From Shewanella dokdonensis (GTDB lineage: Bacteria; Pseudomonadota; Gammaproteobacteria; Enterobacterales; Shewanellaceae): a DNA stretch of 64,000 nt. The notes under the pieces are model-generated. The model saw only the letters and a program-made list of their open reading frames with translations. It did not search any database and was not told where the DNA came from. Below are positions 2,251 through 63,911 of the stretch, piece by piece. The stretch spans positions 2,852,001 through 2,916,000 of the forward strand of contig NZ_CP074572.1 of assembly GCF_018394335.1 (NCBI RefSeq), written 5' to 3'. Within the stretch, counting starts at the first letter, position 1, and every line of letters starts with the position of its first letter. The position numbers and the translations under genes are program-made.

Positions 2251-2350
2251 AGGAACAAACATTCTCAATGTTGGCGGAATACGGAGAGTTCAGATACAAG
2301 GAAGTCAAAAAGCCCATCATCATGCACATCTCCTACGTAATCTGTCACTC

Positions 2351-2401
2351 ACAAAACAAGCCACAGCAACGGACACGGAAAACCGCGCCGTTGCGTTATG
2401 T
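2351..2401 (+). repeat. attC-like integron recombination site (upstream)
   Basis: The right core is GTTATGT (2395-2401), close to the GTTRRRY consensus and preceded by GC as usual. A stem GCAACGG/CCGTTGC lies just inside it, and ACAAAAC (2351-2357) is a possible left core. The decisive feature is the pairing with the next site: the left core of the attC at 4310 (ACATAAC) is the exact reverse complement of this GTTATGT, as expected when both ends belong to one excised cassette. Confidence 0.6.
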
Positions 2402-4363
2402 GTCCAGCTAGACGAACCATAGATACTCAGTAATGGAGAGTGAACATTGAAAATATCCAGTTTAACACTTAAGAACTTTCGAGCTTATAGCAATGTTTTT
2501 GTGAAATTTGATGATAATTTCAATGTCATCATTGGTAGGAATGATGTCGGTAAATCGACAATCCTTGAAGCATTGGAAATATTCTTTAATAACGAGACAG
2601 TAAAAATAGACATAGGAGATCACAATGTTCATGTGGCTGACCCAGAGATGTCTATTCAAGTCTCTTTCAGCCCAGACGATAAGCAATATACCATAGACAC
2701 TGTGCCAACCGATTTACATAGAGAGTATCTCCTCGATGAAAACGGTGAACTAACCATTAAGAAGTCTTGGGATTGCTCGAAAGATAAACTGACTGCCACA
2801 TCATTAAAAACTTATATAATTGCTAATTACCCAAAAGTATTCGAAGAGCCTTTAATATCTTTAAAAATTGCCGACCTTAAGAAAATGCTAGATTCTTATG
2901 GGGATAAACTGGATGTTAAAGAGGTTAAAAAGAATAAGAGTTCATCTATTAGACAAGCGATATATGAAGTAGAGGATATGGCAGAATTTTCGCTTAGAGA
3001 CATTCCGATTGATAAAGAAGATGGGAAGAAAATATGGGATTCTCTTAAACTTGACCTCCCCTTGTTCTTTATATTTCAATCTGACCGTGCCAATAAGGAT
3101 TCCGATAAAAAAGTTCAAGATCCATTAAAGGCTATAACAAAAACAGCAATTGGTCAGCTCGAACAAGAATTAGAGAAAGTAAAAGAACAAATACGAATAA
3201 AAGCTGAAAATCTAGGTAATAGAACTTTAGAAAAACTAAAGGAAATGAACCCAGAAATCGCTGAAGTCCTTACTCCGCAAATGACTAATAAAGCATGGGA
3301 TTCTCTATTCTCCTTCTCGTTTAATTGTGATGATGGTATTCCGATTAACAAACGAGGAAGCGGAGTACGGCGTTTAATACTTTTAAACTACTTCAGAGCT
3401 GAAGCAGAAAGAAAAAACTCAGAGGAACGTAACGTAATATATGCAATTGAGGAGCCAGAAACATCTCAACATCCTGATTGGCAGGTCGAGTTGTTTAATG
3501 CACTTGTTGAGCTTTCTGAAAATCCAAGCACTCAAGTGCTCATAACAACTCATAGCCCGTCTTTAGCTGGGCTTGTGTGCCCAGATAATATATTGTTTGT
3601 ATACAAAAATGAGCAGGATATCAAAGTCAAGAAAGGTGGCAACGATAATCTTCAAGTTATCGCCGATACTCTTGGGCTTCTTCCTAATGTTTCAATTACA
3701 TTAGAAAGCAACGGAATTAAAGCAATATTATGTGTTGAAGGGCCTTCTGATATTGAATTCTTTAATCACATTGGCAAGCTTTTTGGTATTGATCTAGAAA
3801 ATGATGGCAGGGTTCTAGTTCTGTGCTTGGGTGGTGGGACTTTGATGCATTGGGTAAATAAAAATTATCTAGCAAAGCTAAATAAGCCCGAAATTCACAT
3901 TTATGATAACGATGTTTCCAAATATCAATTGGCTATTGATGAAGTGAATGCAAGAGGTAACGGTTGGGGAACACTCACCAATATGTGTGAAATGGAAAAC
4001 TATATTCATCCATCACTGATATCTCAGGTCTACCATATTCAAGAAGAATTCTTTCCTACACAAGGTGAGTGGCAAGAAGAGTGGAGTTCTAAAAATATTC
4101 CGAAGGAACTATCCTCATTCTTGAAGCAACTTAAAGCAAATGGTAACAATGAAATTACAGACGAAGGGCAAAGTTCAATAAAACGAATCCTTTCCAGTAA
4201 GGCAGCGCCACTAATGACAGTCGATCTACTTAAGGATTTGTCAGCATACGATGAAGTGAATGGCTGGTTTGAACAATTGAATGGGTTAATTCAATGAGTC
4301 TGAGGCCACACATAACAAGTCAAAGCGCGCGGCTGTTGCTACGCGCCGTCGGTGTTTGAGGCG
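2396..4363 (+). mobile_element. Integron-type gene cassette carrying an OLD-family ATPase gene
   Basis: The unit runs from the cleavage point G/TTATGT (2395/2396) to G/TTAAAC (4363/4364). It contains one gene in the usual orientation, a short 5' leader (about 51 bases) and its own attC at the 3' end, which is standard cassette architecture. Cassette ends are self-complementary (GTTATGT against ACATAAC). No integron integrase or attI is visible in the window, so it is either a lone (SALIN-like) cassette or a small remnant of an array. Confidence 0.6.
2447..4297 (+). CDS. OLD-family ATP-dependent nuclease (AAA ATPase plus Toprim)
   Basis: Overcoming-lysogenization-defect family protein of 616 residues: an ABC-type ATPase fused to a Toprim metal-dependent nuclease; relatives include phage P2 Old and GajA of Gabija. 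Visible motifs are Walker A GRNDVGKST (30-38), a coiled-coil region (about 215-270), a signature-like GSGVRRLILL (about 304), Walker B with the catalytic acids YAIEEPETS (about 333-340), the switch ITTHSPS, then Toprim CVEGPSDIEF (catalytic Glu about 431) and IYDNDVS (about 485). All key residues are present, so it should be active. Start is TTG with GGAGAG upstream. It is alone in an attC-bounded cassette, with no UvrD-like GajB partner. DNA is far more AT-rich than neighbours, indicating acquisition. A role in phage defence is inferred from the family. Confidence 0.88.
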   Translation: MKISSLTLKNFRAYSNVFVKFDDNFNVIIGRNDVGKSTILEALEIFFNNETVKIDIGDHNVHVADPEMSIQVSFSPDDKQYTIDTVPTDLHREYLLDENGELTIKKSWDCSKDKLTATSLKTYIIANYPKVFEEPLISLKIADLKKMLDSYGDKLDVKEVKKNKSSSIRQAIYEVEDMAEFSLRDIPIDKEDGKKIWDSLKLDLPLFFIFQSDRANKDSDKKVQDPLKAITKTAIGQLEQELEKVKEQIRIKAENLGNRTLEKLKEMNPEIAEVLTPQMTNKAWDSLFSFSFNCDDGIPINKRGSGVRRLILLNYFRAEAERKNSEERNVIYAIEEPETSQHPDWQVELFNALVELSENPSTQVLITTHSPSLAGLVCPDNILFVYKNEQDIKVKKGGNDNLQVIADTLGLLPNVSITLESNGIKAILCVEGPSDIEFFNHIGKLFGIDLENDGRVLVLCLGGGTLMHWVNKNYLAKLNKPEIHIYDNDVSKYQLAIDEVNARGNGWGTLTNMCEMENYIHPSLISQVYHIQEEFFPTQGEWQEEWSSKNIPKELSSFLKQLKANGNNEITDEGQSSIKRILSSKAAPLMTVDLLKDLSAYDEVNGWFEQLNGLIQ

Positions 4364-5617: not shown

Positions 5618-8143
5618 AGTACCTCCTGTTGCAGTGCTGACACCATCGAGCGGCGGCTTTGCCAGTAAAGCGGTAATAGTACTGCCAACAGACAGCATGC
5701 TAATGACAAGCTAACCACTCGGCCATATGCCAGCCAGTCCCAGTGCTGCATAATGGTCCAGCCAAAGGCTTGCAAGGTGACTTTATGGATCAGCAAATAG
5801 CCGAGAATCGCCCCTAACGGCAATGCTAATAAACAGGTGAGCAACACGGCTAGCAGCAGTTGGCAGAGCAGCATCAACCACAACTGTTTTTGTGGTACCC
5901 CTAAGCTACGCAAGATTGCCAATGGCGCTTGTCTTGATTGGGTCAGCATCAATACTGCGCTGAATAGCCCTACAGCGGCGACCAGTAATGTCAGGGTATT
6001 CAACACCAGCGTGATACTAAAGGTCTTGTTAAATACCTTAAGCGCCTGTGTGCGGATCTTCTGCTGGCTGTATATTTGTGCCGGGTTTAGTCCCAACGCA
6101 TTACCTATCTGCTGACCAAGATTATCAATGGCTTGTTGTCCACCCTCTATGCCTCCAAGTGCCAAGCTATAGGGTTGTGCGGGCAACTGCAGTTGCTGCC
6201 ATAAAGTCTGTGCCGCTAACGCTTCACCTTTGGGATTGCCATAGTCAAAATACACCCCGGCTATTTGTGTTAGATGGGGCTGCTGACATTGGCGGTCCTG
6301 ACACAAACGAACCTTATCTCCAACCTGTACAGCCAGTTTCAGCGCCAGCGGTTCGCTGATAAAAATCCCGGCGCCAGCTCCGACTTGTTGCACTGCTTGC
6401 TGCTGTTGTGAACGTCCCTCCGGTTGCTTAAATACCGTGGTTTGTGCAATCGATGTGGGGTCGCGGCTCAGCAAGTTGAGTGCCTGCACACTATTGCCGC
6501 TGGCCACATAATATGGTGCCTGGCCACTGGTAGTAACGCTTTAGTTTAGGCTCATTGACATCGAGATATTGCTGCAATGCCGCCATTTCACCGCTACCAG
6601 GGCGAATATACAGATCAGCGTGCAAGCGGGTATTGAGCCAACTGCGCAGGGTACTATCAAAACTGCCCACTAGGGTATTCATGGCAATGTTGGCACATAA
6701 CGCCAGTAGCAACGCCATCATTGCCAGCGCCAATGGCGCCGTGAGTTCGCGGGTTTCCGCAATGGCATAACGCGGCAAACCTGCGGGAGCCAAGGGCGTT
6801 AATAGGCTGAGACTGGTCTGTAATATTTGCGGAAGCAGCAGTGGTATAGCAATGGTGAGCAGCCCCATCAATGCTAGACTCTGCGCATGTTCACGGCTGA
6901 AGGGATAGAGCGCCGCCGTCAATAACAGTAGCAGTGTTCCCAACATAAACAGTCGCCGATGAATCCGCCGATGCTGCTCCTGCTGTGCAAAACGTTGGGT
7001 GCCTTGGGCAATGCTACGTTGACACAACTGCCGGTATAACGGCACACAAGCCAACAAGGCGGCAATCAGCGTTAGTCCAGCACCTTGTGCCAGCCAAGAC
7101 CATTGCCAATTGCCGGGTAACAGGGTGGCGCCATAAAGTTGCTCAAGAGTGACGGCTACCATAGGTTGCAGCCAATGGCTGAGCTGTAATGCCAACAAAA
7201 AACCGATAAAGGAACCAACGGCCACCAACAGTAACAGCTCCAGTAGCAGCGACAACATCAGTGCCCGGCGGCTGAGCCCTTGTTGCAGCAGTTGTAGTAG
7301 CAGGCGCTGCCGTTTCATCAGGCTATAACGCACACCGTTGTAGGCAATAAATAAACCCACCAGAAATGCCAGCATCCCCATGGCGTTAAGATTTAGATGG
7401 AAACTGCGGGTGAGATCGGTCAGCGCTTTGCCTTGATCTTGCTCGGTGAGCTGTAGTCCGCTCAGCGGCAGCTGGCTTTGGGCCAACTGGTGTTTTAGTT
7501 GTGCGGCATCACCGAACAAGGCGATATAACTTAAACGACCGGAAAGTTGCAGCAGCGGTTGTGCCACTGAGATATCCAGATACAAGCGATTTCCCAAATT
7601 CATGCTGTCGGGTAATGACTTTACCTGTAATAACTGACCACCAAGAGCAAGTTGTGCCGGGGCATTATCGCTAAAGCCCATTGCCCGATACTGACTGTGA
7701 CTCACCAGCACTAAGGGCTGACCACTAAGCAATGCTGTTAGCGGTAACTCACCACCATCACTGGGCGTGTGTTGTGGCAAGCTGTGCAACGCCGCGATAA
7801 TATCGCTGCCGTCTATCTGCCACTTCCGGCCTTGGCTGTCTTCAATGACACCACTGACGATCGGTAACGCGGCTATGCCTTGGCGTTTCAGCGCAAAATA
7901 CAGGGATTCATCAAGGGTGGCATCTCTTCCGGTTGCGCTGATAAACAGGCTCGCCTGTTGCGCCAACGCCTCGCCCGCATGCTGATAACTGTGGATGGCA
8001 TTATCGTTTGTTGCCTTAACCCCAATAAGCAGAGTTACGGCTAACACTACCCCCAGCAAAATAGCGCCTGCTTGCAACGGTGCCTGGCGATAATGCGCCA
8101 GATACACCCTTAGCGCTTGCCAGCCTAGGGATAAGTCATTCAT
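5614..8143 (-). CDS. attFG: AttFG-type ABC exporter permease (FtsX family), one frameshift
   Basis: Inner membrane permease of the LolCE/MacB-like FtsX class, fused from two halves. The repaired protein is 842 residues. It has an N-terminal membrane anchor followed by a large periplasmic domain, a block of FtsX helices (about 270-460), further helices in the middle, a second periplasmic domain and four C-terminal helices. The ATG at 8141-8143 overlaps the stop of the ATPase gene, so the two are translationally coupled. The frame breaks at about 6518-6524, where the text reads GCCTGGC; removing one base gives a continuous protein. It works with the ATPase upstream and the AttH lipoprotein downstream, probably moving a lipid, lipoprotein or peptide across the envelope. 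Confidence 0.8.
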
Positions 8144-8816
8144 GGACTTTACCCTGTTGCAGGTGCCAGCGCCGTTGCATGTGGGCGGCGGCGCTATCAC
8201 TGTGGGTTACCATCAAAATGGCGCTGCCAGCATCGGCGGCGAGTTTGCACAATAGCTGCATCACTTCTTCTGCGGCGTCAGCATCCAGATTACCTGTGGG
8301 TTCATCGGCCAATAGCAGTGCTGGGCGATGTGCCAGCGCCCGAGCAATCGCAACCCGTTGCTGTTGCCCACCTGATAACTGTTCTACCGGACGCTGCGCC
8401 AGTTCGCTGATGCTGAGTTTTTGCAACAGATAATCGCACCAGTCATTCCATTTTTGCCCGAGCAGCGACAACGGAAACAGGACATTGTCATGTACATTCA
8501 GTGGTGTCAGCAGGTTGAATTGCTGGAAGATCACTCCCAGATGTTGGCGACGAAAACGGCTCCATTGTGGATCGTGCCAATGGCTGCAATCGGCACCTTG
8601 TAGCCACAGTTGACCACTGTCAGGATATTCAAAACCACCGATAATATTGAGTAGCGTACTCTTACCACTGCCGCTGGGGCCCGTAAGGGCTACGGTTTCA
8701 GCTGGGTGGATCAACAGATCAAGGCAATCTAGTACCCTATGGTACTGATCTCCATCATTAAACCCTTTACAGACCTGTGAGAGTTGCACCAGTGGTGGCT
8801 GGGGGACGATGGGCAT
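8136..8816 (-). CDS. attE: ABC transporter ATP-binding protein (LolD/MacB type, AttE)
   Basis: Cytoplasmic ATPase of 226 residues that powers the FtsX-type permease encoded immediately downstream. Walker A GPSGSGKST (about 42-50), ABC signature LSGGQQQR (about 143-150), Walker B LLLADEPTGNLD (about 162-173) and the switch histidine MVTHSD are all intact. Architecture and length match the LolD/MacB-ATPase family. It is the first gene of a three-gene minus-strand operon (ATPase, permease, lipoprotein) with overlapping ends, the layout of AttEFGH clusters. Start is ATG; no strong ribosome site is obvious. Confidence 0.88.
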   Translation of the reverse strand: MPIVPQPPLVQLSQVCKGFNDGDQYHRVLDCLDLLIHPAETVALTGPSGSGKSTLLNIIGGFEYPDSGQLWLQGADCSHWHDPQWSRFRRQHLGVIFQQFNLLTPLNVHDNVLFPLSLLGQKWNDWCDYLLQKLSISELAQRPVEQLSGGQQQRVAIARALAHRPALLLADEPTGNLDADAAEEVMQLLCKLAADAGSAILMVTHSDSAAAHMQRRWHLQQGKVHE

Positions 8817-9132
8817 TCTTTGTCCTTACAACAATTGCCAGTGGCGGCAAGCTATCCTTGGGCGCTAGTTTATCTGCTGAGGGCAAAACAGTTAAGTTAA
8901 AAACGATTATTAGCTGTGAGTCTGCGCACTAAAATTGAACGCGATTATTTATAAGAAAAAGCTGTTTTGTCATTGAGTTATTAGCGTTTTTACGCATCAA
9001 GTTGCTTGCGCAAATAGCCACTGGATGATTAAATAAATTCCGTTTGTCGCAGATGTGATGTGCCGTCTGTTGTCATCTGTAAAACACATCATCCCGTGGT
9101 AATGCGACCCAGCCAAGACAGGGAATTGCCAG
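8817..9132. other. Divergent intergenic region, probable promoters
   Basis: 316 bases separate the divergent exporter operon and the hybrid kinase. AT-rich blocks suit promoters for both directions. GATGTG at about 9051 and CACATC at about 9087 form a loose inverted repeat that could be a regulator site. No RNA gene or small gene is seen. Confidence 0.35.
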
Positions 9133-12100
9133 ATGCCTGAGTTAGCCTCTTTTCAAACGTTTCGCCACCGTATTATTTCGCATTTGGCATTGCCGCTTAT
9201 CATCATGATGACCCTGCTATGTGGGATTGCTGGCTGGATTAACTATCAGGAAAAACAGCAAGCTTATTTTGCTGAATTGCGGGCAACCGCCCATAACGCC
9301 GCGCAGAAACTGCAATTTTCATTAAAGCTGGCGCAAGCTGACACGCAGACGTTGGCTTCCAGTCTCGACAATTTTGATGGTAAAAGTCGCGATATCCAGC
9401 CTAATTATCTCTACGCCATGCTGACGGAACGGCTGGAGCGTTATCCGCAGTTTTATGGTTCGGCCATTGCGTTTCGCAAGGGCTTTTTTGGTCATGACAA
9501 ACGTTTTGCCCCCTATGCTTTTCGGCGCGATAACAGCATTGTCACCATGGATATTGGGATGGATGCTTATGACTATACCGATGGAAACTGGGCGTGGTGG
9601 AGTGAAGCGTTAAAACACCCTAACGGGGTATGGACGGCACCGTATTTTGATTCTGGTGCTGGCAATACCTTGATGATCACTTTTTCACAGCCTTTCGGCA
9701 ATGAAGACAATTGGTTTGGGGTTGTCACTACCGATTTGGCGTTGTCATTATTGCCTCAGCGGCTTGGCGTCGCGGCGGATAAGCTACTGGTGGTGGATGA
9801 CAACGGTATGCTGATCTATCGGCCTGGCGCCAGCATCACCGAACAGATCGCCCTGACAGACTGGTTGGCAAAAAATGCAACTGCCGATCTGCCATCCTTG
9901 GCGACCACGCAGATCCATGAAATGCAGCTGACGGACAGGAATAACGTTGCTTATCTAGCCAGTATTGCCCCTGTTGAGCCTTTAGGATGGCATGTGGTGG
10001 TGTTGACGCCGGAGCAGCACCTGTTAACTGCCGTATTAGGCGATTCTGCCTATCTGACATTTGTGTTGCTGGGGGTGATTTTGCTGTTGCTGATCAGCAG
10101 CTTATATACCGCCAGACGGCTGACTCAGCCACTGGAGCAGTTGGCTCAGGGCATCGAAGATTTCAGCCAGGGAAAACTCCTCCGCTTAACTCCGCCGACC
10201 CGCCGAACCGTTCAGGAAGTTGCCAGCCTCAGCAGAAAGTTCAACGAGTTGGCGGATGTCTTGCAACAGCGGGAACAAGCGTTACTGGATTCCCGTGGCA
10301 ATCGGTTTGCTAGCCTGATTGATGGCATGAGCGACACGTCATTTTACTGCTCAATGGCGCCCGATGGTCAGTTAATCCAGGTGAGTGATGGGGTGGAAAA
10401 GGTGCTGGGCATCAATGCCGATACCCTGAAACGTAAATACCAGCGGTTGTTTTCCAGCAGTGCCATTAACGAGCAGAACTGGCAATACATGGAGCCAGGC
10501 ATTGCAGGGGCAAAATGTACCACCACATCAGGTGGAGATGCAGGTCGCCAATGGGCAGTTGCGGCGTCTGGATGTATTTATGCAGCCGTTCATTGATGAA
10601 CATGGACTGGTGGTGTCGGTGGAGATGCTGTTCAACGATGTCACCGAGCAGTTTTCTGCCGCTGCCTGGTCCAAGGCGGTGCTAGAAGCCGCCCCAGAAG
10701 CGATGCTGATCGTTGATGAAGATAGCCGCATAGTTTACAGCAACAGCCGCTGTCAGGAGTTGTTTGGTTATACCGCAGACGAAATGTTGGCATTATCAGT
10801 GGAAGATCTGATGCCGCCACAATTTCGTGAAGGTCACAAACGGCTCAATAACAACTTTGTTAACGGCGACAATAGCCGAACCATGGGCCTTGACCGAACA
10901 TTCCCTGCGCAACGGGCGAACGGTAAGACCTTCCCGGCACAAATAGCATTGAGTCATTTACCTCTAGCCATTGATGGCAAGCGTCAAGCGGCAGCCTCTA
11001 TCCGGGATATGACTGCGCAATTGGCGGTAGAGAAAAAATTCGTGACAGTGAAAGTCGCTTTCGTGGCCTTGTTGCCAACATCCCCGGCGCCATTTACCGC
11101 ATCCGTATTGAAGGGGATTGGATCCTCGAATATATCAGTGATCATATCGCCGATATCAGTGGTTACCCCGCAGCTACCTTTATTGAAAACAAGCGTCGAG
11201 CCTACCGCACCATTATTGTGGAAGAGGATTTGCCTAAACGCGCTTATGCCATCAATGGCGCATTAGTTGAACAACGCCCAATTGATGTGGAATATCGTAT
11301 TCGTCACCGGGATGGCAGCATCCGCTGGATCCATGAAAAAGCCAAGGCCACGTACGATGAACAAGGCGAGGCGCAGTGGTTTGATGGCAGTCTCAATGAC
11401 ATAACCGACAGCAAGTTGTCACAAGAGCGGTTGCGACAATCGCAAGAGCAACTGGAAACGATTACCGAATCCTTGCCGAGCACTGTCTATCAATTGTTGT
11501 GGAGTGACAGTGACAACCGCCGCTTTACCTTTCTCTCTAGCGCTGCGGTAGTCACTCTAGGATTGCCAAGACAGGCGGTTATGGACAACTTTAACATTGC
11601 CGCCGAACGTATCCCCGAGAGTGAACGCCAAGAGTTGCTGGAGTTACTGCGGGGAAGCCGAGGATTGCAGTGGAATACCACCTTCCGTTATCAATATCCT
11701 TCGGGTGGGGTGCGTTGGCTGGAAGCCGGTGCCCGCGGTTTGGCTCAAGCGGGGGAATTCTGTGGAATGGTTACCTGATGGATATCAGCGACCGCAAACA
11801 GATGGAACGCGAATTGGCGCAGCGCGAAGCTCATTTCCGGGCACTGTTTGACAACGCCGCTATCGGCATCGTCAATCTCGACGAGCAGGGCATGATAGTG
11901 GATTGCAATGACTGTTTCTGTCACTACATGGCCAGCACGCCAGAGGTATTAAAACGTAAACTTATCGGCGATCTGCTGTTGCCGGAACAGCGACAGGACG
12001 CGATTGCTACGTTTGATGCGTTAGTGAATGGTCAGCAAGATAGCATTTCCGGTGAATGGCGACTGTTGAATGCCAATGGTGAAATGATGTGGGCGGCGGT

Positions 12101-14378
12101 GAATGCCACGTTGCTCCAGAAACATCAGAATGGGGGCAACTCGGTAGTGCTGGCGGTGGCTAACATTAGTGACCTGAAACATCTCTCTGATGAATTAATG
12201 AATGCGAAAGATGCCGCCGATGCCGCCAGCCGTGCCAAGAGTGATTTCTTAGCCAATATGTCGCACGAGATCCGTACCCCGATGAACGCCATTATCGGCA
12301 TGTCGCAATTATGCTTGCAGACGGCATTAGATAATAAGCAGCGGGACTATGTTGAAAAAATTGAGCGTGCATCGAAGTCACTGCTGGGGATCATCAACGA
12401 TATCCTCGATTTTTCTAAGATAGAGGCCGGTAAACTGCAAATGGAATCCGTTCCCTTCCAGTTGGATGCCATTCTGGAAGATCTGGCCGATATGTTTGCC
12501 GTACGCGCCGCCGACAAACAACTGGAACTGTTATTTTCAGTCGCCCCCAATATTCCCACCTTACTGGAAGGCGATCCGCTGCGCCTGAATCAGATCCTGA
12601 TCAACCTTATCGGCAACGCCATCAAATTCACCGAACAGGGCGAAGTTGAGTTATCTATCCACCAGCTGCAACAGCAAGGGGATGAGGTGACCTTAAGGTT
12701 TGCCGTGCGCGATACCGGCATCGGCTTGACCCGCGAGCAGCAGCAGAAATTATTCCATTCGTTCAGTCAGGCCGATAGTTCTACCACCCGTAAATATGGT
12801 GGAACCGGTCTAGGGCTGGCGATAAGTCGCCAGTTGGTGGAATTAATGGGCGGTGAAATTGGTGTCGAGAGCCTGTATGGCAATGGCAGCACCTTTTTCT
12901 TCTCGGCAAAGCTGAAAGTCTCTGATAATACAGGCATTAAGGTGGCGCAAGAGCTGGAAGGCATGCAATTGCTGGTGGTGGATGATAACGCCACCGCTCG
13001 CGATATTTTACGTACTACATTGGAGAGTATGGGGTTCCTGGTTGATACCGCGCGTGGCGGTGCCGAAGCCTTGCAGAAATTTTCCGAGAAACGCTACGGT
13101 ATGGCACTGGTGGATTGGAAAATGCCGGAAATGGACGGTATCGCCACCGCACAACAGCTCAGCAAACTGGATAACAGCCCACTGATCATCATGATTTCAG
13201 CCCATGCCAGTGGCGATTTCATCAGGCAATTGCCCAGCTATGGTATCAGTGGTTATGTGGCGAAGCCTGTCAGCGCTTCGCGCTTGCTGGACAGCATTAT
13301 GTTGGCTCTGGGCAAGGGTGGCCGTCTGCCGGTGAAGCGTCGCCCTGGTAATCTCGACAGTAAGCTGTTGCAGCAGTTGCAGGGCAAACATGTGCTGTTG
13401 GTAGAAGACAATGAGATGAACCAGGAAGTGGCTTGCGAGTTCCTCGAACAAGTGGGAATCGTGCTGACGTTAGCGGCTAATGGCCAACAAGCGTTGGAAC
13501 AGTTGCAACGCCAGCGCTTCGATCTGGTGCTGATGGATTGTCAGATGCCGGTTATGGATGGTTATCAGGCCACGAGGGAACTGCGAAAAATTGACGGTTT
13601 ACAGCAACTGCCAGTGGTAGCCATGACGGCCAATGCGATGGCGGGCGACCGCGAAAAATGCTTGGCAGCGGGAATGAACGACCATATTTCCAAACCGATA
13701 GAGGTGAGTTTGCTGTACAACATGCTGTTGCAGTATCTGGGGGACGATTCGCCGTCATTCGAAGCCCCATCCGTTGCGGCCGCGGTAGTGATCGCCTGGC
13801 CGGAACATCCCTTGCTGGATATCGACCGCGGTCTGCAACTGGTGCAGAACTCTGAACGATTGTATCGTCGTATCTTCGAGCGCTTCCTCCAAGGGCAAGC
13901 GCAGGTGGTTGATAAGATCCGTAAAGCGTTGGCACAGGGCGAACAAGAAACCGCAGTGCGACTGGCTCATACTCTGAAAGGCGTTGCCGGGAATCTGAGC
14001 TGTGAACCACTGGTGGTGTTGGCGCGGACTTTGGAATCGCAACTGCAACAGCAACAGGATTGTGAAGCGATTTTACAACAGACACAGGTGTTGGTGGATG
14101 AACTGGTGGTGGCTATTGAACATTGGTTGCAACTTAATGATGTTCCAGATGCCAACACGGCAGATTTGTTGGCTCCAGAGGTATTAAAGCAGGAGTTGGA
14201 ACAACTGTTATTGCTGCTGGAGGATGCGGACGCTAGCGCTGTGCCACAGCTGCAAAAACTTCATGGTCGGGTGGATAAGCAACTGTGGCAACAGTTACAG
14301 CCAGTCAACACCATGGTGGCTAATTATCGTTTTGACGAGGCGCAGACCCTGGTGCAGTCGTTGTTGCAGCAGCTGTAA
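9133..14378 (+). CDS. Large multi-PAS hybrid sensor histidine kinase, three frameshifts
   Basis: Inner membrane hybrid kinase of about 1748 residues after repair. Order: membrane helix (about 18-38), periplasmic dCache-like sensor, second helix (about 310-328), HAMP, about five PAS domains, HisKA with [13 protein letters not shown] (phospho-His codon at about 12264), HATPase with [11 protein letters not shown] and DTGIGL, two receiver domains (acceptor Asp in [11 protein letters not shown] and [11 protein letters not shown]) and a C-terminal HPt domain ([11 protein letters not shown]). Frame breaks: an extra base at 10494-10500 (GCCAGGC), one A missing at 11033-11038, one G missing at 11751-11755; all PAS sequence reads through in the adjacent frames. 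Signal unknown. The HPt domain lets it pass phosphate to a separate regulator, most simply the REC-HD-GYP protein next door. Confidence 0.86.
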
Positions 14379-36294: not shown

Positions 36295-39200
36295 TTAGGA
36301 TTGCTCTTCCGTCACAGGTGTTGTGACTTTGGCTGCGGGTTTCCACCACCAAGTATAGAAACGGCGGAACCCCCGTTTAATGTCCTCTAGAATAATATAG
36401 AGCATGGGCACCAAGATCAGTGTTACCACGGTAGAAAACAGGATCCCGAAGGCCAGCGACACCGCCATGGGGATGACGATTTTTGCCTGCAAGCTTTTTT
36501 CCATAATGATAGGAACCAGCCCGACAAAGGTGGTCAATGACGTCAGGATAATGGCCCGGAACCGCTCACAGCCTGAGTTAATCGCCGCTTTCAGCGTGGA
36601 GTGGCCCTCTTCCCTTGCTCGGTTGACAAAGTCCACCAAAATCAGTGAGTCGTTTACCACCACCCCGGCCAGCGCCACAATACCACACAGACTCAGCACG
36701 CTCATCGACAGTCCAAGTATCAGGTGACCAAACAGCGCACCAATCATGCCGAACGGAATAACTGACATGATGATCAGCGGTTGGCTGTATGAGCGCAGCG
36801 GAATTGCCATCAGAGCATAAATGGTGAAGATGGCGAAGATAAAGCCCTTGGCCAGACCGACAACTGCGTCCTGTTCATCCTGGCTGGCACCGTCTAGGGT
36901 AGTAGCGAGATCGGGATACTTTTTCTGTAGTTGCGGAATAAATTGCTCTTGGATCTCACTGACTATCTTGGCTGGTTCAGCCTTTTGCTTGTTAGCATTG
37001 GCGGTAATGGTGATTGCACGGCGACCATTCACCCGGGTAATCGAGTTGTAGGAGTCACCTATTTCAATGGCGGCCACACTGCTGAACGGCACAGATTTGC
37101 CATTGGCGGTGCGGATCAACATGTTTTCCAGATAACCCACAGTGCGGCGCTGTTCCTGCGGATAGCGCACCATCACTTTCACTTCTTCCTTGTTGCGCAG
37201 AATACGTTGGGCTTCGTAACCATAAAAGCCGTAACGTACTTGGCGGGCAAGGTCTGACAAGGTCAATCCCAGCGCTTCCGCTTCAGGGCGGATTTTCAAG
37301 CGGATTTCATGACTGCCAGAAGAGAAATTATCGGCAATATCGTACACACCATCGTAAGTTGCGAGCTTCTGTTTCAGTTCCGCTGCCGCCGCTGACAACT
37401 CTTCCAGATTGGCTGAAATCAGCCGGAAAGAGATATCACCACCGCCACCATTGGTGCTGGCATTGATATTGAGGTTTTTCACCGCCACCATTTCTGGCAG
37501 TTGCGCTCGCCAAGCATCAGCAATCGCCACACCGTCTACGGCACGGTCTTCAGCCTTGGTGAGTTCGGCAAAAATGAAGGCAGAGGTACGGCTATCCATG
37601 TTGATGAAACTATGGTTGACCACTGGGTAGCCCAGCTCTTTTTCCATCTTGTCATTCATGGCATACAGCGCATCTTCTACCTGTTGCGTCACTTTCAGAG
37701 TATTGGTTTCGGAGCTGCCTTCATCCATTTCTAGCTGTACTTGAATGAAATCAGAAGGAATATCCGGAAAAAACACCCAGCGCACATGGCCGGTTTGCAC
37801 TAAGGCAATGGAGATCAGCAAAATACCAATAAATACCGCAACCACACTGTAGCGATGCGGGATCATCCGCTCCATAAAGTTGCGGTAACTGTGGTTGATA
37901 AAGTGCTGCACTCTGGAATTGAATGCCTGGCGGAAGCGCCCCATCCAGCCTGGCTTGGCGTGGTTCTGTTTCATGTGTGCCAGATGCGCTGGCAGAATGA
38001 ATTTCGACTCAATCAACGAGAAGCTAAGACACAAGGTGACAATCAAGCCAATAGAGATCCAGATGATGCCCATCGGCCCTGGCACCATCAGCATCGGGAT
38101 AAACGCCGCAATCGTGGTCAGTACCCCAAAGGTTGCTGGCATCGCCACTTTTTAGCGCCGCGGATAACATTGTCAACTGAGAAACCTTTCTCTTCCACTT
38201 CGGTATGGGCGCTTTCACCGATAACAATGGCATCGTCTACCACAATCCCCAACACCAGAATAAAGGCAAATAGCGTCAACATGTTAATCGACAGATTAAA
38301 CGGCTCCAGCGGCATCAATGCCAGCGACCCGAGGAAACAGACTGGCAATCCCATCATCACCCAGAAGGCCAGTTTGATATCGAGGAACAAGGCCAAAATG
38401 ATGAATACCAACAGTGCCCCATAGGCCATATTGGACAACATCATGCTGAGGCGACCTTTGAGGTAATGGGTTAAATCACCCCAATAGTCCAGTTGCGCGC
38501 CAGCAGCAGGGTGGCTTTGCGTTTGGCAATGTAGGCTTTCACCTGATCAGCAATCGTCAGCGCGTTCTGATCGTCAATGCTGGTGACTTCAATGATGGCC
38601 GCAGGTTTCTGGTCAAAACGAGTGTAGTCCAGCCGTTCTTCAAAGCCATCTTTAATCTCTGCCACCATGGGCAGCATGATGCGGCTGCCGTCAGGCCGAG
38701 TCTTTACCACGATTTTAGCAAAATCGTCGGCGGTATAAGCTTGCCCTTTGGTACGCAGCAGAATGTCACCATCTTCGGCACGAATCGCGCCACCGGGTAA
38801 ATCTAGAGAGGAGTTCTGTACTGCCTGGGCCACTTCAGTAAAGGTCAGCCCGTATTCGCGCATCTTGTCTTCAGAAACTTCAATGCCGATTTCGTAATCC
38901 CGTACCCCGGTGACTTTCGCCTGGGTTACCGCTGGTAGACTGGTGAGTTCATCACGAATGGTCTTGGCCAGCTCTTTCATCTCATGCGGTGCTAAGTCGC
39001 CATATACAGAGACCCAGATAACGTTATTTTCCGGCCGAATGCGATAGATGTTGGGTTTTTCAATGGCAGCCGGGAAGGTGGAAATCGCATCCACTCGCAG
39101 TTTGGCTTCATCCAGAACATCTTTGGGATCATAACCATCCTGCACTTCAAGGGTGACGTTACCTACACCATCACCAGCAACCGAGGTGATTTTTTTGATG

Positions 39201-39439
39201 CCAGGCACATCCCGCAAGGCTTCTTCAATCTTAATGGTGATCCCTTCTTCAATCTCCTGTGGTGCGGCACCTGGGTAGGCTACTGAAATCCGCAGATAGT
39301 TGAGATCAAAAGTGGGAAACACCTCTTTATTGATGGTAAATGCTGATACCAGACCACCAATAATGAGGATCCACATCAACAGGTTGGCCGCAACGTTGTT
39401 GCGGGCAAACCAGGCAATAATTCCGGTTTCCTTTTCCAT
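36295..39439 (-). CDS. RND efflux pump inner membrane subunit (AcrB-like), two frameshifts
   Basis: Proton-driven trimeric exporter, 1048 residues after repair, the normal AcrB size with twelve helices and two large periplasmic loops. Visible blocks are the first helix FARNNVAANLLMWILIIGGL, GAAPQEIEEGITIKIEEAL (porter domain), the proton-relay helix LGIVVDDAIVIGES (Asp-Asp) and the second-half equivalent LAGVVVNDSLILVDFVNRAR. Breaks: one base missing near 38503 (restores ATLPAGAQLDYWGD) and one base missing in the T run at 38149-38153 (restores RGAKKVAMPATFGVL). The start overlaps the adaptor gene stop by one base (TGATG). No outer-membrane TolC-like gene is present in the operon. Confidence 0.88.
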
Positions 39440-58159: not shown

Positions 58160-61048
58160 ATGACCAAGCAAACCCTCACTCAGCTAGAGCAGCACGATCT
58201 CTTTATCCGCCGCCATATTGGCTCCGATGAGACCCAGCAACAGCAGATGCTGGATTATGTCGGTGCCGAGTCTTTGGACGATTTGACCGCGCAGATAGTC
58301 CCAGGATCGATTCGTCTGAACCGGGAACTGGCACTGGATGACGCTTGTGGCGAAGCCGCCGGTACTGAGTCAATCAAGCTGATTGCTGCTAAGAACAAAG
58401 TGTTCAAAAGTTATATCGGTATGGGCTACTACGGTACTGAAGTGCCAGCGGTTATTCAGCGCAACGTGCTGGAAAACCCCGGTTGGTACACCGCTTACAC
58501 ACCGTATCAACCCGAAATTGCCCAAGGCCGTTTGGAAGCCATTCTTAACTTCCAGCAACTGTCGATGGATTTGACCGGTTTGGATCTGGCCTCCGCCTCA
58601 CTGCTGGATGAAGCCACCGCCGCTGCCGAAGCTATGGCCATGGCTAAGCGTATTTCCAAAGCCAAAAAAGCCAATATCTTTTATGTGGCGGATGATGTAT
58701 TCCCACAAACACTCGACGTGGTGAAAACCCGTGCCGAATGTTTTGGTTTTGAGGTGCTGGTCGGCCCGGCTGACGAAGCCGTTAACCACGAAATTTTTGG
58801 CGCGCTGTTCCAGTACAGCAATAAGCAGGGCGCTATCCGTGATTACACCTCACTGTTTGCCCAACTGCACCAACAGAAAGCCGTTGTTGCCGTCGCTGCT
58901 GACATCATGTCGCTGGTGCTGTTGAAGTCTCCTGGCAGCATGGGCGCAGATATCGCCTTTGGTAACACCCAGCGCTTTGGTGTGCCTATGGGTTACGGTG
59001 GCCCACACGCGGCGTATTTCGTCACTAAAGACGAACATAAACGCTCTATGCCTGGCCGCATCATTGGCGTATCTAAAGATACCCGCGGTAACGTGGCACT
59101 GCGTATGGCAATGCAGACCCGTGAACAGCATATCCGCCGTGAAAAAGCTAACTCCAATATCTGTACGGCGCAGATCCTGCTGGCCAACATGGCATCTTTC
59201 TACGCCGTGTACCATGGCCCCGATGGTCTGAAAACCATCGCTAATCGCATTCATCGGCTGACCGATATTTTGGCTGCCGGACTGCAAGCCAAAGGCGTAA
59301 CACTGCTAAATAGCACTTGGTTCGATACCTTAACATTCAAGGTGGCAGACAAAGACGCGGTTATCGCCCGCGCGCTGGCGGCACAAAGCAACCTGCGTAT
59401 TGATGCCGATGGTGCCCTGGGTGTGAGCCTGGATGAAACCACCACTCGCGCCGATGTTGCTACGCTGTTTGATATCATCCTCGGTACTGGTCACGGGCTG
59501 GATATCACCGCGCTGGATACCGCAATTGTGGCGACGGGCAGCAATTCGATTCCTGCTGCACTACTGCGTGATGACGCCATCCTTACCCATCCGGTGTTTA
59601 ACCGCTATCACAGCGAAACCGAGATGATGCGTTACATCAAGCACCTGGAAAACAAAGATCTGGCGCTGAACCATTCAATGATTTCCCTCGGTTCTTGCAC
59701 CATGAAGCTCAACGCCGCGGTGGAAATGCAACCGATCAGCTGGCCAGAATTTGCTAATCTGCATCCATTCTGCCCACAGGTTCAGGCTGAAGGTTATCAC
59801 GAGCTGGTACAGAACCTGAGTGACTGGCTGGTGGAAATCACCGGTTACGATGCCGTATGTATGCAGCCAAACTCTGGCGCCCAAGGCGAGTACTCTGGCT
59901 TGCTGGCAATTCGTCGATACCATCAATCCCGTGGTGAAGCACACCGTAACGTGTGTCTGATCCCGCAGTCTGCCCACGGCACTAACCCCGCATCCGCTCA
60001 CATGGCGGGCATGCAGGTGGTAGTGGTGGAGTGTGACAAGCAGGGTAACGTGGACATGGACGACCTTCGTGCCAAGGCGAGTGATATGGCCGCCAATCTG
60101 TCCTGCATCATGATCACTTACCCTTCAACGCACGGTGTGTATGAAGAAACCATCCGCGATATCTGCCAAGTGATCCATCAGCACGGTGGTCAGGTGTATC
60201 TCGACGGTGCCAACATGAACGCGCAGGTGGGCATTACCTCACCCGGATTTATCGGCGCTGACGTGTCACACCTCAACCTGCATAAAACCTTTGCTATCCC
60301 GCACGGCGGTGGCGGCCCAGGCATGGGCCCTATCGGTGTCAAAGCACATCTGGCACCGTTCGTTGCTGGTCACAGCGTGGTAAAACTGGGTAAAGCCTGT
60401 GATAACAATGGCGCGGTTGCGGCGGCGCAGTACGGTAGCGCTGGCATCCTGCCCATCAGTTGGATGTACATCAAACTGCTGGGCGCCAAAGGACTGCGGT
60501 TATCCACTCAGAATGCCATGCTCAACGCTAACTATCTGGCGAAGAAGCTGTCTGAGCACTATCCCGTATTGTACCGTGGCCGTAACGACCGCGTGGCACA
60601 CGAATGTATCATCGATTTGCGTCCGCTCAAGGAAGCTTCCGGTGTCACTGAAATGGATATTGCTAAGCGCTTGAACGACTACGGTTTCCATGCGCCAACC
60701 ATGAGCTTCCCAGTCGCGGGTACGCTGATGATTGAGCCAACTGAATCTGAATCAAAAGTGGAACTGGATCGCTTCATCGACGCCATGGTGTCTATCCGTA
60801 GCGAAATCGCTAAAGTTGCAGCCGGTGAATGGCCAGCGGACAATAACCCGCTGCACAACGCACCGCACACCATGGCTGACATCATGGACCCAGCGTTTGA
60901 CGAACGGCCTTACAGTCGTGAATTGGCTGTGTTCCCATGCGATGCCGTGCGTGCCAACAAGTTCTGGCCGACCGTGAATCGTATCGATGACGTGTACGGC
61001 GACCGCAACCTGTTCTGTAGCTGTGTGCCGATGGAAGACTATAAGTAG
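58160..61048 (+). CDS. gcvP: Glycine dehydrogenase (decarboxylating), P protein
   Basis: PLP-dependent decarboxylase of the glycine cleavage complex. 962 residues (E. coli 957), no frame break. The PLP lysine lies in [20 protein letters not shown] (about 704-723). Other blocks are [16 protein letters not shown] (about 92), [14 protein letters not shown] and [15 protein letters not shown]. Start ATG follows AAGG at 58150. Last gene of the operon; followed by a terminator and an AT-rich accessory module. Confidence 0.96.
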
Positions 61049-61135
61049 CCTGTTCATGGCGACTTAGCCTTGCTAACATGGCGTTTGCATCGGCAGTCAC
61101 GGCATTTAGCTTGGTTGCATAGATTGGATATTTTG

Positions 61136-61163
61136 AAGGCGAACCGAAAGGTTCGCCTTTTTT
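61136..61163 (+). terminator. Terminator of the gcvTHP operon
   Basis: Stem AAGGCGAACC / GGTTCGCCTT closed by GAAA, followed by TTTTTT. Confidence 0.88.
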
Positions 61164-61302
61164 ATCAATTGGCAAATATGTGATATAGATTGCGTTGCTG
61201 AATAGCTACAAAACAGAAATAAGGTTGAATAATTTTAATGTTAACATTAGTTTAAGCATAGATAATGATACAAGGTGTCATCTTGGATAATTGGAACTTG
61301 GT

Positions 61303-62317
61303 ATGGTATATACTTTTACAAAAACAGAGAGAAATAATTTAAAAGCTTCAACCTTTGAGACTAAGTCTCTTTTGTTTTTGGCATCATCTAATAAGAAATA
61401 CAAAGATATTAGCGTATTGACTATCGATTGTTTTAATGATGTGGCAGGTATGAGTGATACTGAAGAATTGTGGGATGTACAAGCTAAAGGAGAGAAGAAT
61501 CTTACACCAATGAAAATTGGTAAATACTTAATTACTCTCTATGAAAATCACATGTCAGAATTCAGCGAGTTCTATAAGGAATTTATTTTCTTTATGCCTA
61601 AACTTGAAGAGAGATATTTGTTCGATTCCTCCTTGTCGAGTTACGGTTTTGATAATTTTAAGGATGAGTATCAGGATAAAATTACTCAAGGACTTTTGTC
61701 CGTTTGTTCTTCCAAACAGCATGTTATGGATGATTTTTTAAAAAAGTGCTTTTTGTTGAAGATAGAACAAATGAAAGCACATATATAAAAGGGATTATGA
61801 AATTTAAATCATCTAAATTAAATGATCAAAACTTTTACTCTGAAATGTTCAAAGAAATAAGGGATAAACAGACAGTTCTTAAGAATTCGTATATTGAAAA
61901 TACCCAAGTGGCTAGACCGAAAGAAGTTCTAAAATTAGCTAGGCATTTAACTAGTCAGGATTTACAGGTTTTTGTTTTAAATAGGTTGGTTGGTGGTGAT
62001 ATTTTTTCAAAAGGAACTCAATCCCATTAAGTTATAGCTCCTTTGTTAATGGGCTAGATGATGAGGAAATTGAGGATCATATTTTTAAACAAAATGCATC
62101 TTTGAGCAAAGCTTTTTTTGATAAAAGTAATCAGAAAAATTTTTGGAAACTATTTGAAAGTATTTTTCTATCATTTTCTGAAGATTCACGGAAGAAAGTT
62201 TCTCAGGTAATTAATGAGTTAGATGAAAAATTAATTGAACGTACAGAGCACATGGATATGGATTCAACTAGGTTTCTAGTTGCAATAGTAAGGGATGGTT
62301 TGATAATTGAAAATTAA
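61303..62317 (+). CDS. Nuclease-like protein of a two-gene defence module, two frameshifts
   Basis: As read, three short frames; adding one A to 61740-61745 and one C to 62023-62025 joins them into one 338-residue protein. The N-terminal domain (about 1-130) has TFETKSLLFLASSNKKYKD, ISVLTIDCFNDVAGMS and LWDVQAKGEKNLTPMKIGKY, an acid...QxK pattern like PD-(D/E)xK or Cap4/DUF4297-type nucleases. The remainder is helical and charged and ends TRFLVAIVRDGLIIEN. It overlaps the ATPase gene by 11 bases. DNA is very AT-rich. A nuclease effector partnered with an SMC-like ATPase is the layout of Lamassu and ABC-three-component systems; the family call is inference from motif pattern and context. Confidence 0.62.
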
Positions 62318-63911
62318 AAAGTTTGCATTCGGAAATGAAATTGAAGCGTTTATTGAAACAAGGCTTAGCGAACGCGTAAATATTATCTTTAGTGATGACA
62401 ATAACAAAGGTAAGACATTGGTATTGCAAGGGATGATGTTTTCATTAGGGAATGAACCAATATTCCCTGCTGGATTTGATTATAAAGACTACTATTTTTA
62501 TATTGAATTTATTCATGATGGGAATTTATTTAGGATATTAAGGAAAAATAATACATTCTCAATAATTAGTGAGAATGGTTTGAGTATTTTTGAATCCACA
62601 TCTGAATTCAAATATTTTTTTGATGAAAATATTTATAAACTGCCAGAAATTGTTCATAGAGAATTACCAAAGTTAGTTGACTTAAGTCTTTTCATACAAA
62701 TGTTTTTTGTCGGTCAGGATAAGCGGGATACTTCTAGTATTTTTAATAGTGGGTATTATAACAAATCAGACTTCATAGATATGTTATTTTCTTTGAAAGG
62801 GGTTTACGGCGGTGAATTATCTAATGAACAGATAACTGAACTTAAGGATAGATTGAAGCAGTTAAGAATAAGTGAGAGAAAACTTGTAAAAGAGATTGAT
62901 CGTTTTAACATTAATAAAGCTGTTCTTGAAAATGTTAAAAAATCAGCAAGTTTTAAAGAGTTCCAAGAGCAAGAGAAATTCCTTAAAGAACTGCATGGAA
63001 GAATTTCAGAAATCAGAAAGAAGAGATATTCTGAAGTTTCTAGGTTGAATAACTATATTAATTTAGAGTTGGAACTTAACTCTCTGAATCGAGCCATTTC
63101 TTTTGGGCGTGTTTCATGCGAGGATTGTGGTAGTGAGAATATTACATATAAGTCAAAAGATATCACTTTTGATATCAGCAATTTAGAGGTTAGGAAATCC
63201 ATTCTAAAATCTCTGAAAGGAACTATAGATTATAAAAAGGAAGCTATTTCTAGAATAGATTATGATTTGTCAAGTTTACAAGAAAAAATGTCGGATAATT
63301 TAGGTAAGGTCTCTCCTACATTAAGAGATGTTATTTTGTTTAGAGATGAGCTTAATGGTACTGGGAAGTTAGATAAAGAACTTCAAGAAAAACAGAGGGA
63401 AATAGAGTTAGTTACTAGGCAGATAAATGAATCAAATGTCAAAAAAGAAGGGGTTTCAGAAAAGCAAAGAAAACTAATTGATGAAATAGTTAAAGTAATG
63501 AATAAAATTTATAGAGTGATTGATGAGGATGGTTTGCAAACATTTCATGATTTGTTTACCAAAAGATCAGTTAATTATTCTGGTAGTGAAGAGCAAGAGT
63601 TCTATTTTTCAAGGGTTTACGCATTGCTTTTAGTTATGAAACACGAGTTTCCAATAGTTATTGATTCATTTAGAGATCGTGAACTGTCTAGTCTAAAAGA
63701 AATGAAAATGATTGACGCTTTTGAGTCATTAGATAATCAGGTTATTATATCTGCGACTCTTAAAAAAGAAGAATATACGAGTGACAAATATGAAACGCAT
63801 GGAGCCATTACAGCCATTGATTATAGTGCCAATGCTAATGGTCGAATTCTATCTGATTCATTCAAGAATGACTTTGTAAGTATTTGCCGTGATTTTGGTG
63901 TGAGATTCTAG
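62307..63911 (+). CDS. SMC/Rad50-like ATPase with zinc-hook-like Cys pair
   Basis: 534-residue ABC/SMC-type ATPase. An unusual P-loop FSDDNNKGKTLVLQG lies at about 28-42; the first Gly of Walker A is missing but NKGKT is kept. Two coiled-coil segments (about 175-255 and 290-400) flank a C-x2-C-G motif (CEDCGSENITYKSKD, about 271), like a small zinc hook. The C-terminal lobe has a signature-like YSGSEEQEFYFSRVYAL, Walker B PIVIDSFRDRELSS (about 450) and a switch segment QVIISATLKKE. It starts at TTG inside the end of the preceding gene, so the two proteins are coupled. Composition is strongly AT-rich. A sensor/ATPase role in a phage-defence pair is inferred. Confidence 0.75.
   Translation: MKIKKFAFGNEIEAFIETRLSERVNIIFSDDNNKGKTLVLQGMMFSLGNEPIFPAGFDYKDYYFYIEFIHDGNLFRILRKNNTFSIISENGLSIFESTSEFKYFFDENIYKLPEIVHRELPKLVDLSLFIQMFFVGQDKRDTSSIFNSGYYNKSDFIDMLFSLKGVYGGELSNEQITELKDRLKQLRISERKLVKEIDRFNINKAVLENVKKSASFKEFQEQEKFLKELHGRISEIRKKRYSEVSRLNNYINLELELNSLNRAISFGRVSCEDCGSENITYKSKDITFDISNLEVRKSILKSLKGTIDYKKEAISRIDYDLSSLQEKMSDNLGKVSPTLRDVILFRDELNGTGKLDKELQEKQREIELVTRQINESNVKKEGVSEKQRKLIDEIVKVMNKIYRVIDEDGLQTFHDLFTKRSVNYSGSEEQEFYFSRVYALLLVMKHEFPIVIDSFRDRELSSLKEMKMIDAFESLDNQVIISATLKKEEYTSDKYETHGAITAIDYSANANGRILSDSFKNDFVSICRDFGVRF

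Follow-up and report, generated by a model that had tools for sequence, protein, structure and literature searches.

The 3' side of gcvP in Shewanella dokdonensis raises the question of what is encoded by two adjoining genes, referred to here as A and B, that occupy the end of a window of 64,000 nucleotides (NZ_CP074572.1, 2,852,001-2,916,000), the window being the whole stretch of DNA that was analysed. An initial annotation had described a two-gene module of a nuclease and an SMC-like ATPase next to gcvP, sharing the design of Lamassu systems, and the open reading frames, the profile matches and the folds of both proteins bear this out. Very probably the two proteins work together against invaders as a system of the type I Lamassu kind, one that PADLOC lists as PDC-M22; B would sense DNA in it and A would act as a DNase effector. 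The evidence that carries this reading directly comprises the homology of the proteins, their folds, the conserved catalytic and ATP-binding residues, the close pairing of the genes, their foreign composition, their patchy presence and the lack of a third component between them.

Both proteins match the PDC-M22 models of PADLOC over their length, which makes the module a member of PDC-M22; the genes carrying the PDC-M22A and PDC-M22B matches adjoin on the + strand with an overlap of 11 bases (Table 1). Gene A is read in three frames in this assembly, the first of which is open from 61291 to 61788 (165 codons; the start used in the family lies at 61303). All three frames match PDC-M22A when searched separately, and in the search of the genome they span positions 1-172, 146-242 and 237-336 of the 340-position profile; little of the gene is therefore missing, and the agreement of three pieces on one profile is far beyond chance. 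Intact relatives of A match PDC-M22A over their full length. The near-identical protein P0141, encoded without interruption on one contig of 446,782 bases, shows 96, 100 and 100% identity to the three pieces over 153, 79 and 71 residues, respectively, retains the active-site residues of A, and has 338 residues, the length that had been given for the repaired protein. Gene B, in addition to its match with PDC-M22B, matches LmuB models over residues 21-485 and also PDC-M46, and no ABC family other than LmuB was matched at E<=1. According to PMC11811056, PDC systems are unpublished candidates, and PDC-M46 coincided once with Lamassu. Searches of Pfam and NCBIfam returned nothing usable for A or B, the matches being weak and mostly to coiled coils (AAA_23 in 3 of 50 B members).

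The folds agree with these assignments. For B, an ABC head, short coiled coils and a CxxC motif were found, with LmuB as the best match; the LmuB of the LmuAB-DNA complex 9ux7 is matched at E 4.7e-11 by sequence and shares 16% identity on structural alignment. For A, the model was built from an intact relative 66% identical to P0141, and it is predicted to contain a PD-(D/E)xK core followed by a helical C-terminal part, a fold that matches LmuA, DUF4297 and Cap4, with LmuA of 9hr5 as the best Foldseek match. Chain C of 9ux7 (304 residues), which was taken as LmuA, aligns through 267 of its residues with model residues 14-337, the C-terminal part included, at 9% identity. The nuclease fold and the ABC head, whose absence would have spoken against the initial annotation, are thus both found, the former in the model of the relative.

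Table 1. Features of the module and of its upstream boundary, in window coordinates
Feature	Position	Strand	Evidence
Hairpin with T run	61135..61160	+	RNA fold -18.9 kcal/mol, z -5.3
Gene A, PDC-M22A, LmuA/Cap4-like PD-(D/E)xK nuclease, three frames here	61303..62317	+	Each piece matches PDC-M22A; intact near-identical P0141
Gene A, first frame, nuclease core with E, D, D, QAK	61303..61788	+	PDLC04520 positions 1-152, E 4.7e-57; residues verified on P0141
Gene A, second frame, middle part	61746..62030	+	PDLC04520 positions 162-240, E 1.1e-31
Gene A, third frame, C-terminal helical part	62102..62317	+	PDLC04520 positions 270-337, E 2.8e-17; match in this frame from about 62003
Gene B, PDC-M22B, LmuB-like SMC/Rad50-type ATPase, 534 residues, intact, TTG start	62307..63911	+	PDLC04526 E 2.2e-200; LmuB PDLC00254 E 2.5e-19
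P-loop SDDNNKGKT, B residues 29-37	62391..62417	+	Pattern in 70/70 B proteins
Hook motif CEDCG, B residues 271-275	63117..63131	+	CxxC in 70/70; C271 and C274 invariant in 50 rows
ABC signature YSGS, B residues 424-427	63576..63587	+	S425 and G426 invariant in 50 rows
Walker B strand and loop PIVIDSFR, B residues 449-456	63651..63674	+	Serine in the place of the catalytic glutamate, after the aspartate

The ATPase motifs of B were compared across 70 loci in which both genes are whole, the same set being used for the A-B correlation and the B tree described below. The P-loop follows the form S-x-[DE]-NN-[KR]-GKT in every one of these proteins, so the form that had been called non-canonical is the family's own. 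The length of 534 residues, the P-loop and the CxxC hook given in the initial annotation are all present, the last two as SDDNNKGKT and CEDC, and its proposal that a short ATPase with an odd P-loop marks a divergent subtype was rejected, because the LmuB of 9ux7 has 562 residues and carries SKGNTKGKS at the P-loop position, likewise without the first glycine. In the Walker B motif, no glutamate stands behind the aspartate in any of the 68 proteins, of 70, that the pattern D-[SCYAF]-[FY]-R caught, and 9ux7 LmuB has DSF at this position, like B. In PMC10586767, LmuB is described as a protein of about 650 residues in which the Walker B glutamate is generally changed to glutamine, with little or no hydrolysis suggested for the Vibrio system, whereas S, C, Y, A or F takes this place in the B family. 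B may accordingly be pictured as a switch rather than a motor.

Among known systems, the closest resemblance is to type I Lamassu, the type to which 9ux7 belongs on our reading of its title and of that of 9uxh ("type II Lamassu, LmuACB with DNA"). Two genes are present and LmuC is lacking, as in type I; the LmuB of 9ux7 and B have in common the P-loop form, the CxxC hook, the SG signature and the DSF Walker B, and chain C can be aligned over most of A. The differences lie in the low identity of both structural alignments and in the position of A outside the PADLOC LmuA models. With type II Lamassu, DdmABC and ABC-three-component systems (LmuA-LmuC-LmuB; 9hqx, 9hr5, 9nxx, 9uxh), the module shares a Cap4-type nuclease effector, for which LmuA 9hr5 is the top structural match of A, and an SMC-like ATPase, but the middle LmuC of those systems has no counterpart between A and B. 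The general features of Lamassu are also recognizable, namely an LmuB-like ATPase, an adjacent effector with an N-terminal enzymatic and a C-terminal part, replacement of the Walker B glutamate, and the zinc-hook CxxC, which is a feature of many, though not all, Lamassu LmuB proteins; Lamassu effectors are reported to vary in PMC10586767. In B, in the number of genes and in the fold of A the module is judged to be like type I Lamassu, and its effector lies outside the PADLOC LmuA models; since A matches none of these models, the system is called Lamassu-like and its formal name stays PDC-M22.

Cap4 is found with a cyclic-nucleotide synthase, in the cyclic-oligonucleotide-based antiphage signalling system (CBASS), and DUF4297 with a HerA hexamer, whereas the partner of A is an SMC-like ATPase. 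SAVED was not among the 25 listed of the 33 families that matched A in a general scan, in which no search was aimed at SAVED or CD-NTase. It is conceivable, though improbable, that the pair is a conflict system of separate origin, in which a Rad50-like ATPase recruited a nuclease of the DUF4297/Cap4 type, A being convergent with Lamassu and B a distant homologue. This account has to contend with the sequence match of B to LmuB over most of its length, to the exclusion of other ABC families, with the three motif forms that B and 9ux7 LmuB have in common, and with an alignment of A to chain C of 9ux7 that extends into the C-terminal part.

The linkage of the two genes was followed in the best 80 of 101 genome loci encoding a relative of B. 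A sequence lies directly upstream of B in 78 of these 80 loci, so the homologues are linked, as the initial annotation would have it; in one of the remaining two, L076, B starts at a contig end, and the other is L024. Elsewhere among the 80, A is cut by a contig end (L052 and L074) or the B match falls into two segments (L020). Where the genes are whole, A and B overlap or abut, leaving no room for an LmuC. Pairwise distances of A and B are correlated in the 70 loci (r=0.88; 0 of 2000 permutations as high, the highest being 0.14), and on the B tree, which spans nine phylum-level groups, the labels change 13 times, against a possible minimum of 8. The flanks of the 80 loci, taken to at most 4 kb and in part shortened by contig ends, were surveyed for frames of at least 80 codons, and no widely recurring third gene was found; by eye, the commonest cluster resembles serine recombinases (13 of 80 loci) and the third, at 5 loci, integrases, and the second occurs at 6 loci. 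A defence scan of neighbouring frames, run without a control, covered 120 of 148 picked frames, themselves drawn from 328 of 180-900 codons, and gave 137 families at E<=1e-10; methyltransferases (3 frames) and PDC-S41, PDC-S02 and bSEFIR (2 frames each) are among the matches listed, and no enrichment is claimed.

The distribution is patchy. No full-length match occurs in the 59 other relatives, a single one of which gave a weak partial match, and in a search of 369 genomes of the class the module's own genome alone has one, four others giving weak partial matches; the LmuB search of these 369 genomes likewise returned only weak or partial matches besides the genome's own gene. No match was found in 50,697 phage records or, in a DNA-mode search, in Escherichia coli genomes, and 2 of 72,556 plasmids gave one. 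Two loci on viral contigs both have A sequence upstream of B, one of them (L121) being cut by a contig end. On the other, a 47-kb IMG/VR contig (L122), the A-B pair at 6913-9605 has both frames open and is surrounded by long, mostly same-strand open stretches; the module may thus be carried by (pro)phages. A housekeeping role in DNA repair, of the Mre11-Rad50 or SbcCD kind, was rejected on the basis of this distribution among the relatives and the genomes of the class, and it is very improbable on other grounds as well: the module is AT-rich and scattered over nine phylum-level groups, the partner A is a PD-(D/E)xK nuclease rather than an Mre11 phosphoesterase, and the Walker B glutamate of B is replaced.

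The interruption of A was attributed in the initial annotation to run-length errors, a claim that the evidence supports as probable. As a yardstick for indel errors, genes of the RND pump family PF00873 were counted, adjacent same-strand rows being grouped into genes by hand, two rows sharing one open frame being scored as a single unbroken gene, and isolated rows with matches poorer than E 1e-10 being excluded. Ten of 14 such genes are split in this genome, vs 0/13, 0/13 and 0/14 in the three congeners G005, G013 and G020 and 3/14 in G035. Within the window itself, an RND pump is split into three pieces (36295-39439), and a long gene at 9133-14378, apparently a multi-PAS sensor kinase, runs through neighbouring frames. 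The split long genes across the window and the genome point to many small indel errors in the assembly, and homopolymer runs are located in the stretches where the frames of A change; because the assembly contains many such errors, A probably only looks broken. A reading compatible with membership of a Lamassu-like family, but of low probability, is that A is truly broken in this strain, only B is made and the locus is a remnant. It would account for the three frames, and an interrupted or truncated A occurs at 5 of the 80 other loci as well. The ten split RND genes, moreover, include a pair of near-identical copies broken into four pieces in the same way, a result hardly expected from independent read errors (leaving the pair out, the count is 8/12). 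These copies, at 1221277-1224369 (+) and 1851469-1854561 (-) of the genome, perhaps belong to a repeated or decayed element. Against such a loss stand the RND split rate relative to the other genomes, the nearly whole profile covered by the three pieces, the unbroken near-identical copy in another record and the intact state of B.

Returning to the reading of the module as a Lamassu-like defence pair, a mechanism can be proposed in which DNA-end sensing, the caging and release of A, multimerisation and abortive infection are carried over from work on Lamassu. B would dimerise via its ATPase heads and cysteine hook and, when bound to ATP, may serve as a Rad50-like sensor of abnormal phage or plasmid DNA, such as ends, hairpins or products of stalled replication; the sensing of hairpins or DNA ends is reported or proposed for Lamassu in PMC10586767 and PMC12904381. 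A, as the putative PD-(D/E)xK DNase effector, would be kept inactive on B by its helical C-terminal part, a mode of docking suggested by analogy. Clamping of target DNA by B could then free or rearrange A, which would multimerise through its Cap4-type domain and cut DNA; this would halt the invader and probably damage the cell too. Release of LmuA and its assembly into a tetramer are reported in an addendum in PMC12409362. A bolder and more doubtful proposal, offered tentatively, is that PDC-M22 is a separate two-gene Lamassu branch distributed over many phyla, in which B, lacking the catalytic glutamate, acts as a one-shot ATP-dependent latch that cages a Cap4-type nuclease without LmuC. If this were true, PDC-M22 would be among the simplest protein pairs that convert a DNA end into nuclease release.

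Several observations weigh against the Lamassu-like interpretation. The three pieces of A and four intact relatives match no PADLOC LmuA model at E<=1, these models being the detection rule of one database. The A profile matches no PDB sequence at E<=5, and A has no convincing Pfam or NCBIfam family. Its link to LmuA is one of predicted fold, with low template-modelling scores, in a model built on a relative rather than on the window's own A, and the scores of HerA-associated DUF4297 and Cap4 are close to that of LmuA (Z within 3). The gene is not one readable frame in this assembly; A is interrupted at L005, L023, L053 and L059 and truncated at L079 beside a whole B, which may reflect nuclease toxicity or assembly errors, and at L024 B is preceded by 686 bases that contain no A. 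Shared inheritance contributes to the A-B correlation. In the literature search, beyond whose reach most subscription papers lay, no report of activity for any PDC-M22 member was found, nor was the name or any study of it.

PDC-M22 is already contained in PADLOC 2.0.0, without a mechanism, and other resources, detection tools for instance, may already list it as Lamassu. The tie to the solved LmuAB complex provides this unpublished candidate with a testable mechanism and widens two-gene Lamassu to a branch missed by the PADLOC LmuA models, which suggests that Lamassu counts based on such models miss relatives. Additionally, since loss of the Walker B glutamate is conserved, the pair offers a small system in which the need for ATP hydrolysis in Lamassu sensing can be tested directly.

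The surroundings of the module agree with the initial description of an AT-rich pair just after the gcv terminator and near the window edge. The guanine-plus-cytosine (GC) content is 30.4% in 61200-63911 vs 49.4% in the whole window; gcvP lies upstream at 58160-61048, and the hairpin that follows it is the probable terminator of the gcvTHP operon and upstream boundary of the module, although it is absent from the listing of a consensus terminator scan. B ends 89 bases short of the window edge, and the next long frame beyond it is convergent and, by eye, PLD-like. Promoter-like sites around the module do not exceed shuffled sequence (10 vs a shuffle mean of 13.5). Searches for tRNA genes in the window and for Rfam families in the 19 kb around the module found none, so no integration site of such a kind was seen.

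In the nearest congener, G005, gcvP is 96% identical and homology ends at its 3' end, resuming 7.8 kb further on in this genome (L084 positions 2034 and 9845), where G005 carries 3.6 kb of different DNA. Genes of conflict type stand just 3' of gcvP in three of four other congeners viewed: an AT-rich gene with a partial PDC-M36A match in G015 (L146), an nSTAND protein, a trypsin-like protease and Trypco1 in G023 (L147; Pfam matches, with no PADLOC match), and a TIR protein adjoining a protein with weak WD40 matches in G013 (L148). In G012, no such gene was recognized by eye in the frames listed after gcvP. These congener sites suggest a defence hotspot downstream of gcvP. The 7.8-kb stretch missing from G005 also holds, about 3.2 kb past B and outside the window, a class A beta-lactamase-like gene (L084 8111-8992, - strand; Pfam Beta-lactamase2, E 6.6e-43). 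At the other end of the window, 57 kb from the module, an AAA_15 gene at 2447-4297 (+), in a region of 37% GC (2300-4300), matches models of AriA, GajA and Old, and its product is a candidate OLD-family nuclease or AriA-like defence protein.
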